This document shows positions 6,168 to 53,092 of a DNA stretch of 59,971 nt, piece after piece. Position 1 is the stretch's first letter. Each line of letters opens with the position of its first letter. This DNA comes from Streptantibioticus silvisoli. Lineage in GTDB: Bacteria > Actinomycetota > Actinomycetes > Streptomycetales > Streptomycetaceae. Location: the NCBI RefSeq assembly GCF_027947535.2, contig NZ_JAAGKO020000055.1, positions 1-59,971 on the forward strand, written 5' to 3'. A program made the translations under genes and the position numbers. The notes below the pieces were generated by a model. It was given only the letters and a program-made list of their open reading frames with translations. It did no database searches and was not told the origin of the DNA.

Positions 6168-6279
6168 GGGCCGCTGGGCAGCGGGGAGCGGGCCCGGGCG
6201 GTCGGGGGTGGTCAGGCGGTCGGGTCGGCTCAGGCGGTCGGGTGCACGCCATCCGCTCGGCTCGGCTCAGGCGGTCGGA

Positions 6280-6333
6280 CTCACGCGGTCCGCCCGGCTC
6301 ACGCGGTCCGCCCGGCTCACGCGGTCCGCCCGG
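6280..6333. repeat. 18-bp tandem repeat, three perfect copies, in a repeat-rich gap
   Basis: Three head-to-tail copies of CTCACGCGGTCCGCCCGG (6280-6297, 6298-6315, 6316-6333). Degenerate relatives (GGCTCAGGCGGTCGG and similar) fill most of 6205-6430. The tract separates mqnP from the convergent rhomboid gene and reaches into the last codons of the latter. I see no coding sense or spacer structure. Confidence 0.85.
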
Positions 6334-6418
6334 CTCGGGCGGTCGGGCTCACGCCATCCGCACAGCTCACGCGGTCCGCACGAGGCAAGCGGTTCGTCCG
6401 CTCACGCCGTCCGCCCGC

Positions 6419-7093
6419 TCACGCAGTCCGCTCGTCGACGCCGTCGCCGGTGCGGCGGCGCATAACGAAGGCGGCCAGCACGCCGCCGGCCAGGCCGAAC
6501 AGGTGGCCCTGCCAGGAGATGCCCTCGGTGCCGGGGACCACGCCCCACAGGATGGAGCCGTAGATGACGGCCACCAGCACGCCCAGGCCGATGTCCAGCG
6601 GGCGGCGGTCCACGAAACCGCGCACCAGCAGGTAGCTGAACAGGCCGAATATCAGCCCGGAGGCGCCGGCGGTGTTGGTGTGGGCCGGGGCTATGCACCA
6701 CACACCGAGCCCGCTCACCACGATGATCAGCAGCGCCACGCCGAGGAATCGCACGACGCCGGCCAGCGCGGCGAAGAACCCGAGCACCAGCAGCGGCAGC
6801 GTGTTGGCGGCGAGGTGCGCGAAGCCGAAGTGGACGAAGGCGGCCGGCACCACGTCCAGCAGCTGGCCCGGCTCGCGCGGCACGATGCCGAGGCTGTCCA
6901 GCGAACCGTGGGTGAGCACGTCCACCGCCTCCAGCACCCACAGCAGCGCCACCCAGCCGGCCATCAGCAGTCCGGCGGCCAGCGCGCGACCCGTCGTGTC
7001 GTCCTGCCCGGCCCGCCGCGCCCACTCGGTCCACCGGTCGGCCCGGCCGGACATGCCGGCGGAGTTCGCACCGTACGACGATGTGATCCGCAC
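6419..7093 (-). CDS. rhomboid-family intramembrane serine protease
   Basis: Polytopic membrane protease that cleaves single-pass membrane substrates within the bilayer. It has 224 residues and about six membrane helices. The catalytic dyad is visible as S145 in GASGLIFG and H197 in WQGHLFGLAGG. The preceding HFGFAHLAANTLPL block (about residues 88-101) is the usual oxyanion-site helix. An ATG at residue 14 is an alternative start. It is divergent from the UbiX-type gene and convergent with mqnP. Nothing in the neighbourhood identifies a substrate. Confidence 0.9.
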   Translation of the reverse strand: MRITSSYGANSAGMSGRADRWTEWARRAGQDDTTGRALAAGLLMAGWVALLWVLEAVDVLTHGSLDSLGIVPREPGQLLDVVPAAFVHFGFAHLAANTLPLLVLGFFAALAGVVRFLGVALLIIVVSGLGVWCIAPAHTNTAGASGLIFGLFSYLLVRGFVDRRPLDIGLGVLVAVIYGSILWGVVPGTEGISWQGHLFGLAGGVLAAFVMRRRTGDGVDERTA

Positions 7094-7234: not shown

Positions 7235-8167
7235 GTGGACTCCTCACCGTCCGGCGCCGCCGGTGCCGCCCCCCGCCGCCCCTGGATCGTCGGGGTCTCC
7301 GGTGCCTCCGGGACGCCCTACGCGGCGGCGGTGATCCGGGCGCTGCTGGCCGCCGGTGAGCCCGTCGACCTGGTCGTCAGCCGGGCCGCCCGGCTGACGT
7401 TGCTGGACGAGACCGGTCACCCGTTCCGCGACGCGCACTGGCGCGAGGACCTGCGCCGCTGGCTGGCTCGGGGCGCGAACGGCGACCCCGAGGCGTTCGG
7501 CCCCGCCGGTAAGGCGGACGCCTCCGCCGAGGCCAACCTCCCCGCCGGTGCCAACCTCCCCGCCGGTGCCAACCTCCCCGCCGAGGCCAACCTCCCCGCC
7601 GGTGCCAACCTCCCCGCCGAGGCCAACCTCTCCGCCGGAGCCGGCACCCGCACCGAAGACGCCGCCCCCGCCAGGGCCACCCCCTCCGCCGAGGTCGCCA
7701 CCCCCTCCGCCGAGGCCGCCGCCGCCAGGGCCACCCCCTCCACCGAGGGCGATCTGCGTTACTGGCCCGCCGGGGATCTCGCTGCCGGGCCCTCCTCCGG
7801 GTCGTATCCGGCGCGCGGCATGATCATCGTTCCGGCGAGTACGGCGAGCGTGGCCGGGGTCGCGCTGGGACTGTCGAAGGACCTGCTCCAGCGGGCCGCG
7901 TCGGTCACCCTGAAGGAGCGGCGGCCGCTGGTCGTCGTGGTGCGCGAGACGCCGTTGAGCGGGCAGGTGCTCCGGCAGCTGGTCGCCCTCGACGCGGCCG
8001 GCGCGGTCGTCCTGCCCGCCTCCCCGGCGTTCTACGCGGGCGCGGTGAGCGCGCAGGAACTCGTCGACTTCGTGGCCGGCCGGGTGCTGGACGCGGCGGG
8101 GGTCCCGCACCGGCTGTACCGCAGGTGGGAGGGGACGCTCGGCGGCGGCCGGGACGGTCTGCGGTGA
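7235..8167 (+). CDS. UbiX-family flavin prenyltransferase with long low-complexity insertion
   Basis: Makes prenylated FMN for the UbiD-type decarboxylase. The N terminus carries the UbiX flavin-binding signature GVSGASGTPYAAAVIRALL, and the C-terminal half (from RYWPAGDLAAGPSSGSYPARGM to the VVVVRETPLSGQVLRQL and PASPAFYAGA blocks) is complete. Between them, at about residues 80-170, a linker that is short in relatives is expanded to roughly 90 residues of Ala/Pro/Glu-rich sequence. This includes six hexapeptide repeats NLPA(G/E)A at residues 101-136. Total length is 310 against about 200 for the family. All catalytic blocks remain, so function is probably kept, with the insertion as a surface loop. 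Start GTG. Confidence 0.92.
   Translation: MDSSPSGAAGAAPRRPWIVGVSGASGTPYAAAVIRALLAAGEPVDLVVSRAARLTLLDETGHPFRDAHWREDLRRWLARGANGDPEAFGPAGKADASAEANLPAGANLPAGANLPAEANLPAGANLPAEANLSAGAGTRTEDAAPARATPSAEVATPSAEAAAARATPSTEGDLRYWPAGDLAAGPSSGSYPARGMIIVPASTASVAGVALGLSKDLLQRAASVTLKERRPLVVVVRETPLSGQVLRQLVALDAAGAVVLPASPAFYAGAVSAQELVDFVAGRVLDAAGVPHRLYRRWEGTLGGGRDGLR
7535..7642 (+). repeat. 18-bp in-frame tandem repeat inside the UbiX-family gene, six copies
   Basis: Six units of AACCTCCCCGCC(GGT/GAG)GCC, each encoding NLPAGA or NLPAEA; the last copy is slightly diverged (AACCTCTCCGCCGGAGCC). The period is a multiple of three, so slipped-strand changes would keep the frame. Further degenerate PSAEVATPSAEAAAARATPS sequence follows to about 7745. 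Confidence 0.95.
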
Positions 8168-44996: not shown

Positions 44997-45122
44997 GTGC
45001 GCCGCGACCGCTCCAGCCCCAGCCCCCGCATCCGGTGAGCCGCGACCGCTCCAGCCCCCGCACCCGGTGCGCCGCGGCCGCCCCAGCCCCCGCATCCGGT
45101 GAGCCGCGACCGCCCCCGTCCG
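44997..45122. repeat. 32-bp tandem repeat, nearly four copies
   Basis: Units beginning GTGAGCCGCGACCGC or GTGCGCCGCGACCGC and ending CCCCCGCATCCG at 44997-45034 (with a 6-base CCCCAG duplication), 45035-45066, 45067-45098 and a shortened copy 45099-45122. Non-coding, between convergent genes. No spacer diversity, so not CRISPR. Confidence 0.85.
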
Positions 45123-45136
45123 GTGAGGCGTCCCCG

Positions 45137-48317: not shown

Positions 48318-48448
48318 GCGCGACGGAACCGGGCGGAATGCGGGCGGCGTCGCGCCCGTAACGGACAGATGACTGCAACTTCCGCCAACGACAGCCAATC
48401 GGGTCAAAACGGTTGCCCGGGCGGGGCGGCCCACCGTAACGTCCCTGC

Positions 48449-50017
48449 ATGAAGCCTGTGGTGGTGATCGGCGCCGGCCCCTACGGGCTGTCGACCGCCG
48501 CGCATCTGACCGGACTCGGTGTGCCGGTGCGCGTCTTCGGCGTGCCGATGGCGGGGTGGAGCGAGGCCATGCCGGCCGGCACCATCCTGTGCTCGCCGCC
48601 CGCCGACTCCTCCATCGCCGCCCCCGAACCCGGCCACACCCTCCAGGACTTCAACGACGCGATGGGCGAACGGCGGCTGCTCGGCCCCCGCGACCTGGTG
48701 ACGTTGGACACGTTTGTCCGTTACGGCCGCTGGTACGCCGACCGCCTGGTGCCCGCCGTCGAAGGCGTCCGTGTCGCCGATGTCACCCCGCTCGCCGACC
48801 GCCGTGACGTGGCCGGATTCCGCCTGCGGCTGGAGAGCGGCGAGGAGTTCACCGCGCCGGCCGTCGTGGTCGCCACCGGCCTGACCGGCGCCGCCCACCT
48901 GCCGCACGAGCTGCGCGGACTCGCCCCGGCCGGCCCCTCGCCCGGCGGACCCGTCTCGCACTCCTCGCAGCACACCGTCTTCCACCGGTTCGCCGGCCGG
49001 CACGTCGCCGTCGTCGGCGCCGGGCAGTCCGCCCTGGAGAGCGCCGCGCTGCTCACCGACGCCGGCGCCACCGTCACGCTGCTCGCCCGCCGGCCGGGCT
49101 CCGCCGGCTTCGGCCCGCCCCCGCCGCACCGCGGCCCGCCCCGGCCGGGACCCGCCCTCCTGCACCGGCTGCCCGCCGCGCTCCGCCGCGCCCTGGACCG
49201 CCCGCCGCCCGGCCCGCGCGGCGCCTGGTGGCTGCGGGACCGCTTCACCGGCGCGGTCACCGTCCTCGACGGCCACCGGGTCGCCGCCGCGGGCCGGACG
49301 ACGGGCGACCACGCCGCCGCGGAAGGCGTCCGCACCGAGGGCGTGCGCACCGAGGGCGTCCGCACCGAGGGCGTCCGCACCGAGGGCGTGCGCACCGAGG
49401 GCGTCCGCACCGAGGGCGTGCGCACCGAGGGCGTGCGCGCCGGAGACCTCCCCGCCGGAGACGCCCGCACCGAGGGCGCCCGCACCGGTGACCTCCCCGC
49501 CGGAGACGTCCGCACCGGCGGCGCGGCCGTCGGCACCCCCGTCGGCAGCGTCGCCATCGGCACCCCCGTCGACAGCTCCGCGGTCGTCAGCGCCGTCTCC
49601 GGTGCCGTGCCGGGTGCCGTGCCAGGTGCCGTCTCCGGTGCCGTCCCCGGTGCCGTCTCCGGCGGCGCGGTGGCCCGGGGCGGCGGCCTCGCCACCGGCT
49701 CCCGCGTCCTGCTGCTGACCGGCGGGCCGGCCGGGCCCGGGGAGCTGGTCGCCGACCACGTGCTGGCCGCCACCGGTTACCGCTTCGACCTCGACGCGCT
49801 GGACTTCCTGGCCGTCGCGCTGCGCGCCCGGCTGACCAGGGACGGCGGCGCTCCCCGGCTGGACCAGTGGTTCCGCAGCTCGCTGCCGGGGCTGTTCTTC
49901 GCCGGTCCGGTGGCCGCCAGCGCGTTCGGCGGCGCGCTGCGCACCGTGCGCGGCACCGGGTTCGCCGCCCCGCGGGTGGCCCGCGCGATCGCCGCCGCGG
50001 TGGGTCCCGGGCGCTGA
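48449..50017 (+). CDS. FAD/NAD(P)-binding oxidoreductase (flavin monooxygenase-like) with repeat insertion
   Basis: Flavoprotein of 522 residues. It has an N-terminal FAD site VVVIGAGPYGLSTAAHL, a second dinucleotide site HVAVVGAGQSALESAALL near residue 190, the VVVATGLTG linker between them, and a C-terminal FATGY-like VLAATGYRFDLDAL plus LPGLFFAGPVAASAFGGAL block. Between about residues 290 and 425 an unusual insertion contains seven GVRTE pentapeptides and then GAVP/GAVS repeats. The flanking fold is complete, so the insertion is probably an exposed loop. Start ATG. Divergent from the KDG operon; the substrate is unknown. Confidence 0.87.
   Translation: MKPVVVIGAGPYGLSTAAHLTGLGVPVRVFGVPMAGWSEAMPAGTILCSPPADSSIAAPEPGHTLQDFNDAMGERRLLGPRDLVTLDTFVRYGRWYADRLVPAVEGVRVADVTPLADRRDVAGFRLRLESGEEFTAPAVVVATGLTGAAHLPHELRGLAPAGPSPGGPVSHSSQHTVFHRFAGRHVAVVGAGQSALESAALLTDAGATVTLLARRPGSAGFGPPPPHRGPPRPGPALLHRLPAALRRALDRPPPGPRGAWWLRDRFTGAVTVLDGHRVAAAGRTTGDHAAAEGVRTEGVRTEGVRTEGVRTEGVRTEGVRTEGVRTEGVRAGDLPAGDARTEGARTGDLPAGDVRTGGAAVGTPVGSVAIGTPVDSSAVVSAVSGAVPGAVPGAVSGAVPGAVSGGAVARGGGLATGSRVLLLTGGPAGPGELVADHVLAATGYRFDLDALDFLAVALRARLTRDGGAPRLDQWFRSSLPGLFFAGPVAASAFGGALRTVRGTGFAAPRVARAIAAAVGPGR
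49325..49429 (+). repeat. 15-bp in-frame tandem repeat inside the FAD oxidoreductase gene, seven copies
   Basis: Seven units of GGCGT(C/G)CGCACCGAG, each encoding GVRTE, with a degenerate eighth (49430-49444). The G/C variants alternate irregularly, which suggests repeated unit duplication. A second repetitive tract (GTGCCG/GTCTCC-type GAVP/GAVS codons) runs at about 49596-49660. Confidence 0.95.
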
Positions 50018-50292
50018 CCGGCGGGGTCCCCGGCGAAATCCGGGCGCCGACCGGCGGATCCCCGGTGGGTTCCGGGGCGCTGACCGGCGAGCTTCCCGGC
50101 GGGCTCGCCGGAGGGGGCCGCGGCGGGTGACCGGGCCGGGCCCGGAGTGCGTCGTGGCGGGTGAACGGGCCGGCCCCGGAGTGCGTATCGGTGCAGGCAC
50201 AGCGAACCGGCCATCTGTGAACGAGCACGGACCGGATACGCTCTAACAGTGGCACTGAGGCCACGACCGAATCAGCGACAGGAGTTCCCCTC
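50018..50292. repeat. degenerate GC-rich repeats upstream of the polyprenyl synthase
   Basis: 275 bases with several copies of GCGCTGACCGGCG/GGCGCCGACCGGCGG-like units (50010-50100) and two copies of CGGAGTGCGT(C/A) within GGCGGGTGA(C/A)CGGGCCGG context (50120-50185). The last 90 bases are AT-richer and must carry the promoter of the downstream gene. Confidence 0.5.
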
Positions 50293-51527: not shown

Positions 51528-52217
51528 TCACTCCTTGACGCTCACCAGCGTGCGGCCGTCCAGTGTGCGGACGTCGAAGTGGTCGATCTGGCCGCGGGAG
51601 AAGCCGGTGCCGCCCCAGACGGTCAGCGGCTTCGGCATGCCCGGCATCCCGTACCCCGCGTCGGGCACCGCCCAGGTCGTCGCGGTCTGCGAGGCGCCGG
51701 TGGAGGAGACCGCGACGAGCTTGCAGCTCAGCGGCCCGTGGACGCCGGACAGGGTGAGGCCCAGGTCGGTGCCCCAGCTCTCGTCGGTCATGGTGACCTT
51801 CGCCCGCACCCCGGCCGGCGCGGTGCCGGACGCGGTGGCGGACACCGCCGTGGAACCGTTCGACGAGGAGGTGGCCAGCGCGGTGACCACGGGACCGGCG
51901 ATGATCAGCGCGACCGCGGCGGCCACCAGGTAGAGCCGGCGGTGCCGCGTCGTACGGCGGGTGTCGCGTACGTCGGCCAGCAGCCGGTCCAGCAGTTGGG
52001 GCTCCGGCGGCGCCAGCAGCGCGTCGGCCCGCTGCCCGGGCGGCAGGTCGGCGGCGAACTCCGCCAGCGCGGCCTCGACGTCCATCAGCGATTCGAGTTC
52101 GGCGCCGCACGGATCGCAGACCGCCAGGTGCTCCTCGAAGGCGGTGGCGTCGTCGTCGTTCAGAGCGCCCAGCACGTAGGCGCCGACGTCAAGGTGTCGC
52201 TCGCACGGCGGCGTCAC
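51528..52217 (-). CDS. zinc-finger anti-sigma factor, membrane-anchored (RskA-like)
   Basis: Partner of the ECF sigma factor. 229 residues: an N-terminal ZAS domain with H30-x3-C34-x2-C37 (HLAVCDPC), a membrane helix at about 95-115, and an extracytoplasmic domain of about 110 residues resembling the RskA sensor region, ending RTLDGRTLVSVKE. GTG start overlapping the sigma stop by 4 bases, ensuring matched synthesis. It would hold the sigma factor at the membrane until a signal triggers release. Confidence 0.92.
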   Translation of the reverse strand: MTPPCERHLDVGAYVLGALNDDDATAFEEHLAVCDPCGAELESLMDVEAALAEFAADLPPGQRADALLAPPEPQLLDRLLADVRDTRRTTRHRRLYLVAAAVALIIAGPVVTALATSSSNGSTAVSATASGTAPAGVRAKVTMTDESWGTDLGLTLSGVHGPLSCKLVAVSSTGASQTATTWAVPDAGYGMPGMPKPLTVWGGTGFSRGQIDHFDVRTLDGRTLVSVKE

Positions 52218-52840
52218 GACGTCACCCCCCGCTCCTCCAGCGCGATCTTCAGCGACCGCAGCGCGTAGAACGCCCGGGACCGGACCGTCCCGGCCGGGAT
52301 GCCCAGCTCCTCCGCCGCCTCGTTGACCGTGCGGCCCCCGAAGTAGGTGGCGACCAGCACCTCGCGGTGCGCGTCGGTCAAGTCTGTCATGGCGTCGGAG
52401 ATGGTCATCAGCCGCAGCGTACGGTCCATCTCGTCCGCCGCGGGCATCGATTCCAGCGGGGTGGCGTCCACCTCCTTGGGGCGGGCGCTGCGGTTGCGGT
52501 GCCCGTCGATCACGATGCGGCGGGCCACGGTCACCAGCCAGGGGCGCAGCGAACCGGTGGAGCGGTTGAGCTGCTCGGTGTTGCGCCAGGCGCGCACCAG
52601 CGTCTCCTGCACCACGTCCTCCGCCCGGTGCCGGTCCCCGGCGACCAGCCGCAGCACGTAGCCGAACAGCGGTCCGGCGTGTTCGTGGTACAGCGCGCGC
52701 ATCAGCTCCTCGTCCGGCTGCGCGGCGCGGCCGCCGGGCCCGTCGGGCCGGTCCGGCCGGTCGGCCCCGGGGGACCGGGCGGGGCCGCGGGCCCGGCCCT
52801 GAAGGGTCTGGTCGTCGGTCACCCCCGAATACTTGCGCAT
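52214..52840 (-). CDS. ECF RNA polymerase sigma factor
   Basis: Group IV sigma factor of 208 residues. Region 2 (about 45-110) includes LYHEHAGPLFGYVLRLVAGD and AEDVVQETLVRAWRN; region 4 (about 145-200) includes LTDAHREVLVATYFGGRTVNEAAEELGIPAGTVRSRAFYAL. The N terminus has an Arg/Pro/Gly-rich extension of about 40 residues. The ATG at 52840 is chosen because GAAGG lies just upstream; a GTG at 52822 is an alternative. Co-expressed with its anti-sigma factor; the LolA-like gene is divergent. Confidence 0.93.
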   Translation of the reverse strand: MRKYSGVTDDQTLQGRARGPARSPGADRPDRPDGPGGRAAQPDEELMRALYHEHAGPLFGYVLRLVAGDRHRAEDVVQETLVRAWRNTEQLNRSTGSLRPWLVTVARRIVIDGHRNRSARPKEVDATPLESMPAADEMDRTLRLMTISDAMTDLTDAHREVLVATYFGGRTVNEAAEELGIPAGTVRSRAFYALRSLKIALEERGVTS

Positions 52841-52949
52841 TAAACCTTCAGGGTCGAGGCGGTCGTCCGAAATCAGCGCGATCCTCCCCACCCCTCCGCG
52901 AGATCGAGCCACGGGCCGCCGCCGCGGGCACTCCCCGGGCCCACGCCGG

Positions 52950-53092
52950 CGACACCCCAAGCCCGCGACACCCCGGGCCGGCGACACCCCGGGCCAGCAA
53001 CACCCCACGCCGGTGACACTCCACGCCGGTGACACTCCACGCCCGCGACACCCCACGCGGCAACACCCCACGCCCGCGACACCCCGGGCCGG
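52950..53092. repeat. 16-bp tandem repeat, nine copies
   Basis: Nine contiguous units of the form CGACACCCC(G/A)(G/C)GCC(G/C)G, with variants CAACACCCCACGCCGG and TGACACTCCACGCCGG; one unit is 15 bases. The unit length is not a multiple of three and the array is non-coding. No spacers separate the units. Confidence 0.9.

Follow-up and report, generated by a model that had tools for sequence, protein, structure and literature searches.

A tandem-repeat tract, probably a lineage-specific minisatellite, forms a predicted disordered loop inside an FAD oxidoreductase of Streptantibioticus silvisoli

How does a tract of pentapeptide repeats come to lie inside the domain of an FAD oxidoreductase, and what kind of sequence is it? 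The stretch of DNA that we analysed (the window, 59,971 nucleotides) carries on its plus strand a gene at 48449..50017 that encodes a 522-aa FAD/NAD(P)-binding oxidoreductase of the Pyr_redox_2/3 type. The gene was identified from its open reading frame, from Pfam (PF07992, E 6.3e-17, plus PF13738) and with a simple codon-model gene caller, which chose the same frame and placed the start at 48458, the ORF start being 48449. Its third-position GC is 0.94 and is coding-type along the entire gene. Alignments and AlphaFold pLDDT delimited a low-complexity insertion at residues 286-413 (49304..49687, plus strand), within which seven 15-bp units at 49325..49429 (105 bp, plus strand) each encode GVRTE. 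A preliminary description of this DNA had called the seven units exact. They are exact as peptide but not all identical as DNA: units 1-7 vary at a single site, base 6, which reads C,G,C,C,G,C,G and gives a silent alternation of GTC and GTG.

The seven units are followed on the plus strand by six degraded 15-bp units (49430..49519; TRF and sequence), which can be read as two 45-bp blocks. These units, 8-13, encode GVRAG, DLPAG, DARTE, GARTG, DLPAG and DVRTG and depart from GVRTE by many amino-acid changes. TRF then detected, on the same strand, a 27-bp array of 2.4 copies (GTPVGSVAI/GTPVDSSAV) at 49516..49581 and a 12-bp array of 5.9 copies (AVSG/AVPG) at 49592..49662. The sub-arrays of 15, 27 and 12 bp are all multiples of three, are in frame and lie almost end to end, and TRF also found a 45-bp period nested over the 15-bp units. 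The best TRF score in the GVRTE region was 224, with 87% matches, whereas 20 dinucleotide shuffles of the window yielded no array scoring at least 100 and a highest score of 68. This argues that the GVRTE array did not arise by chance. When a 30-bp pattern of two units was compared with the genome of the organism, allowing up to three mismatches, seven overlapping matches were obtained, all within the GVRTE array. Separate 33-bp and 34-bp arrays occupy 50007..50186: they start in the last bases of the oxidoreductase gene, whose stop codon is at 50015-50017, and extend into the following gap.

The protein has two Rossmann dinucleotide motifs, GAGPYG at residues 8-13 and GAGQSA at 190-195, which place it among the Pyr_redox_2/3 flavoproteins, and the insertion lies where it had been claimed to lie, between the second motif and the C-terminal ATGY/FAD block. 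All of the 50 structural matches listed had a Z score of at least 19.6. The fold resembles that of YpdA/Bdr (7a7b) across both dinucleotide domains (VIA-align Z 24.7, rmsd 4.3, 313 residues) and, over the same two domains, that of a bacterial flavin monooxygenase (4a9w; VIA-align Z 23.5, rmsd 4.0, 312 residues). These two chains differ from the window protein in being 323-330 residues long without such an insertion, at 19-25% identity. Monooxygenase likeness was also seen with PvdA (3s61, Z 22.2) and PF13434 (37.2 bits). The protein scored 46.3 bits against the YpdA family model TIGR04018, for which the cut-off is 339.9, and it has no CxxC motif of the thioredoxin reductases, its single cysteine being Cys48. 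The nine Pfam matches at E 0.001 did not include the pentapeptide-repeat family PF00805. That family shares only its five-residue period with the GVRTE tract, which is predicted to be disordered rather than to form a repeat fold. The pentapeptide-repeat motif is A(D/N)LXX, and GVRTE does not fit it.

AlphaFold was run on 46 sequences. In the model of the window protein (mean pLDDT 70.7) the dinucleotide domains are well predicted, and residues 288-413 have pLDDT below 50, a sign of disorder. This region is flanked by strands 276-283 and 419-425. In the insert-free homologue L038 (mean pLDDT 74.9), a two-residue link connects strands 287-295 and 298-305. The two-residue turn in L038, compared with the disordered excursion in the window protein, suggests that the insertion opens a tight beta-turn.

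Two sets of homologues were compared with the window protein. The first comprised the best 80 of 161 relative-encoding loci found in a scan of genome contigs, and the insertion is absent from all 80 of these homologues, every one of them from Streptomyces. Between the N- and C-terminal matched pieces, 76 of the 80 are shorter than the window protein by 128-136 residues, mostly by exactly 131, in keeping with the length of ~130 residues first proposed. The second set comprised 29 loci from whole genomes, of which two were set aside; the insertion is absent from all 27 evaluable loci. It is also absent from L009, the closest sequence in the tree. The preliminary description had named beforehand one finding that would overturn it, namely the same insertion in all homologues. 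This is excluded, as none of those examined carries it, and the reading of a frame-keeping tandem array that gives an FAD oxidoreductase a loop specific to its lineage holds for the homologues examined. From shared neighbours we take the gene to be the positional orthologue of these homologues. Within flanks of 6 kb, some of them shorter, a homologue of the polyprenyl diphosphate synthase gene that neighbours it in the window is present on the same strand in 59 of the 80 loci, and homologues of NuoM and NuoN, whose genes are both present in the window, lie near 10 and 28 of the 80, respectively.

Four Streptomyces loci around S. turgidiscabies (L100, L106, L109 and L114) lack 89-120 residues relative to the window protein and have inserts of their own at the same turn, of about 39, 11, 42 and 39 residues, respectively. 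These inserts are Ala/Gly-rich, follow the residues ARIV and have no sequence relation to the insertion in the window protein. L100, L106 and L109 cluster together in the tree, from which L114 was left out. Separate inserts at one position suggest that the beta-turn tolerates insertion. A tandem origin of these inserts was considered, and their 9-bp repeats were weak (scores 35-39) and were not counted as evidence.

The GVRTE array belongs to a wider load of minisatellites that are filtered by frame, a point that goes beyond the preliminary description. TRF was run with identical settings throughout, and arrays scoring at least 100 were counted as strong. In 38 stretches (730,675 bp) of this draft 8.7-Mb genome of 130 contigs we found 89 strong arrays, or 12.2 per 100 kb of the 731 kb sampled, eight of them in the window itself. 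The 19 relatives gave 71 strong arrays in 1.6 Mb, or 4.4 per 100 kb (range 0 to 12.1). Sampling of the relatives fell mostly inside contigs, whereas the sample of this genome includes contig starts and small contigs, from which part of the pooled 12.2 derives: the density was 9.2 per 100 kb in internal stretches (37 arrays in 400 kb), 12.2 at the starts of large contigs (22 in 180 kb) and 24.3 in small contigs (22 in 91 kb), with 9.2-13.3 in the other stretches. Against the pooled relatives, the moderate excess in the sampled genome is fairly put at about twofold. The density does not surpass that of G012, at 12.1 per 100 kb, which rules out an array density unique to this genome. Densities also shifted with the sample: G012 gave 4 arrays when 60 kb were sampled and 17 with 140 kb, and G009 fell from 10.0 to 6.7 per 100 kb. 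The G012 value and this sampling dependence put the genome at the high end of the range. Loss of NucS mismatch repair was ruled out as the cause of the excess, the gene having been found in all 21 genomes searched, including this one, and the NucS search revealed no repair cause. A weaker NucS_C match was seen besides the main NucS gene at G000:C53:39871-40149.

Several of these arrays deserve mention in their own right. The array-rich small contigs are C3, C5, C7, C9, C11, C14, C17 and C20 of G000 (L120-L127), and their richness perhaps reflects assembly breaks at repeats, or chromosome-arm sequence. In contig C5, a 16-bp array (L121:15485-15662; 10.9 copies, 99% matches) reaches the contig end and perhaps marks the point where the assembly stopped. 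In the window, a 16-bp array of 9.2 copies lies at 52940-53085, in a divergent gap, upstream of a minus-strand gene of the sigma-70 family (ECF-type; 52214-52891), and convergent gene gaps hold a 32-bp array at 44997-45135 and 50/68-bp arrays at 6197-6428. A gene on the minus strand of L137 (392-4813) fuses nitroreductase and DBI_PRT phosphoribosyltransferase domains and has five coding arrays in an Ala/Pro/Glu-rich stretch N-terminal of them. A minisatellite family shared between loci was also considered and rejected: 280 arrays from 20 genomes (score at least 80) were no closer to the 15-bp unit than random segments of the same length. Searching with the repeat itself brought up GVRTE-like 15-bp arrays in G018, G022, G011, G053 and G028, with frames that are unclear or other; one-frame readings of VRTEP, VRTDG or GVRAE occur at L248:1700-1874 (G018), L250:1798-1930 (G011) and L253:1381-1516 (G028). 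A sixth GVRTE-like locus, in G034, had no array at score 80. We treat the likeness of the five arrays as convergent.

The arrays differ in unit length according to their position. The codon-model gene caller assigned 28 arrays to genes (23 genes) and 58 to intergenic DNA, with 3 mixed. At a score of at least 100, all 28 coding arrays of this genome had a period divisible by three, compared with 22 of 58 intergenic arrays, the latter near the expected one third; among internal stretches alone, the intergenic share was above one third (15 of 29). Lowering the score to 80 gave 47 of 47 coding and 38 of 92 intergenic arrays, and at a score of 60 the rule softened, with 98 of 104 coding arrays and six exceptions. 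Relatives with gene calls (1.2 Mb) showed the same bias, with 20 of 20 coding arrays (19 of 20 by smallest period) compared with 6 of 20 intergenic ones. The bias is partly a matter of ascertainment, since a frame-breaking array disrupts the ORF as well and may then be counted as intergenic. Coding DNA of this genome contained 4.7 arrays per 100 kb, whereas intergenic arrays, of which 53 of 58 could be placed, reached 75 per 100 kb in convergent, 44 in tandem and 21 in divergent gaps. In 16 of the 23 array genes, with coordinates read by eye, the arrays lie in tails, in linkers or in proteins without a Pfam match above cut-off; in the other 7 they lie inside or near a domain (WD40, chaplin, EccD, SpoIIE/HATPase, NicO, UbiX and the oxidoreductase), some of these families being repetitive anyway.

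The UbiX-family gene is a second enzyme case in the window. This flavin prenyltransferase gene (7235..8167, plus strand), near MqnP-, UbiD- and MqnE-type menaquinone genes, belongs to the UbiX family at 138.8 bits against the curated TIGR00421 cut-off of 108.9, despite an in-frame insertion of its own. TRF found 18-bp and 54-bp arrays inside it at 7524..7746 (plus strand), which encode EANLPA/GANLPA and then an Ala/Pro/Ser/Glu tract. All 38 relatives that have both orthologue halves lack 62-88 residues of the insert, and seven of them were aligned. Two conserved flavin enzymes ~40 kb apart therefore have repeat-built inserts within their domains, which offers an opening to gauge the tolerance of an enzyme core for disordered insertions.

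Taken together, these results make it quite likely that the GVRTE tract arose as a lineage-specific minisatellite, through repeated rounds of local tandem duplication, and is a tolerated loop in an otherwise intact flavoprotein. Local tandem duplication would be common in this genome and blind to reading frame, and selection inside genes would retain those arrays whose unit is a multiple of three and gives a flexible loop away from cofactor sites. Such frame-blind birth followed by selection would account for the bias towards units divisible by three, the scarcity of arrays in coding DNA and their preference for convergent gaps; the frame statistics part the origin of arrays, largely frame-blind, from their survival, which inside genes is in frame. 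The tract may have expanded within a surface beta-turn, away from the cofactors, that tolerates a floppy loop. The nested 45-bp order, the silent markers shared between blocks and the three adjacent arrays of different unit point to successive local duplications, which we infer to have occurred by replication slippage or unequal exchange. The loop is probably a nearly neutral, length-unstable appendage with no conserved sequence function, and its length may vary between isolates, as the preliminary description proposed. The locus is a clean case of the birth of a disordered loop, in which the two-residue turn of a relative corresponds to a 130-residue repeat tract, with shorter, separate inserts elsewhere.

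Is the enzyme itself intact? The gene may instead be losing function, with the insertion a symptom of relaxed constraint. In the alignment of the 80 homologues, residues 215-254 (49091..49210, plus strand) form a segment with 16 missing columns that are held by at least 75 of the 80 Streptomyces homologues, among them G, A, W, S and L fixed in all 80; the L038 model has a low-confidence helix (232-249) at this place. With this lost segment included, the window protein is altered at 33 of 144 near-invariant columns, compared with 8-23 in its nearest relatives, L002-L009, and in Tajima-type counts it evolved faster than L002, L003, L005, L007 and L008 (p <=0.05). However, its sister L009 is equally fast without any insertion (43 vs 43 and 38 vs 41), more distant homologues (L014-L016) have 32-36 altered columns, and the frame is intact through 522 codons, with the dinucleotide and ATG motifs and the coding-type third-position GC all kept. 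Clear pseudogene decay is not supported, given the equally fast sister, and we regard loss of function as doubtful. The repeat could also be mis-joined or miscounted, this being a draft of 130 contigs and copy number in short tandem repeats being error-prone in assemblies, but the 105-bp block of seven units is anchored by its silent C/G markers and its degraded neighbours, the frame is kept, and comparable arrays occur on many sampled contigs, so that an assembly error is very unlikely. That the tract belongs to an antisense gene is hardly credible: minus-strand ORFs are open across the locus (for example 48404-50200 and 48721-49773), but at 72% G+C such frames are commonly open on the antisense strand, and both the homologues and the coding score belong to the plus frame.

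If the loop itself were under selection, it would act as a charged, flexible tether in which R and E alternate, along with G and V; it would bind a partner or tune the enzyme, with its length as an adjustable setting. Seven units that are exact as GVRTE and vary only silently would fit such a role and could be an outcome of selection on the peptide, and the inserts at the same turn in four other loci, as well as the insert of the second flavin enzyme in the window, would fit it too. A recent 45-bp duplication accounts for the uniform block, however, and units 8-13 depart from the peptide; the inserts of the other loci are unrelated in sequence and Ala/Gly-rich, and the loop sequence is found in none of the aligned homologues, with nothing conserved that points to binding. 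We therefore consider a selected tether improbable and favour the tolerated minisatellite. A broader proposal, that active frame-blind duplication keeps making length-variable disordered loops in the folded cores of conserved enzymes, is speculative and, on present evidence, unlikely. If true, such loops would be a standing reservoir of enzyme appendages that evolve fast, with some turning functional, and a bacterial counterpart of the repeats of Borg elements.

How do these arrays compare with known systems? Passages of a survey of prokaryotic satellites report 38 satellites in Streptomyces coelicolor (4.20 per Mb), with units of 10-200 bp, many of them in genes as amino-acid repeats with units divisible by three (PMC6749651). 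The arrays described here share the tandem form and the in-gene unit lengths with those satellites, whereas the densities are not comparable, the survey requiring at least four regular copies and our TRF threshold being laxer (PMC6749651). The same passages describe no array inside an oxidoreductase domain (PMC6749651). Among the matches listed in a search of titles in the open-licence PMC literature, none named a tandem-repeat loop in a Streptomycetaceae oxidoreductase or UbiX.

The nearest published pattern that we found is that of the aaTRs of Borgs, as set out in passages of PMC9879509. In-ORF unit lengths of Borg aaTRs are all divisible by three, compared with 14-38% of intergenic ones; the aaTRs create new disordered regions missing from homologues, and each array is nearly unique in sequence (PMC9879509). 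The present arrays are alike in their in-frame units (15, 27 and 12 bp here; 28 of 28 coding arrays), in the near-uniqueness of each array's sequence, in an intergenic share of 22 of 58, or 38%, against the Borg range as given there, and in a loop that is predicted to be disordered and is missing from the 80 Streptomyces homologues. They differ in their units, Borg repeats being generally perfect and A-enriched (PMC9879509) and those here imperfect and G+C-rich, with 87% matches and degraded units. The carrier also differs, being a contig of an 8.7-Mb bacterial genome with NuoM/NuoN and menaquinone genes and with Streptomyces homologues. Among the proteins with Borg aaTRs, extracellular and membrane proteins are over-represented, and the repeats are often terminal or between domains (PMC9879509), whereas the array here is inside the folded domain of an oxidoreductase. 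The kind of array is already known, and what is unusual is its location inside a folded enzyme domain.
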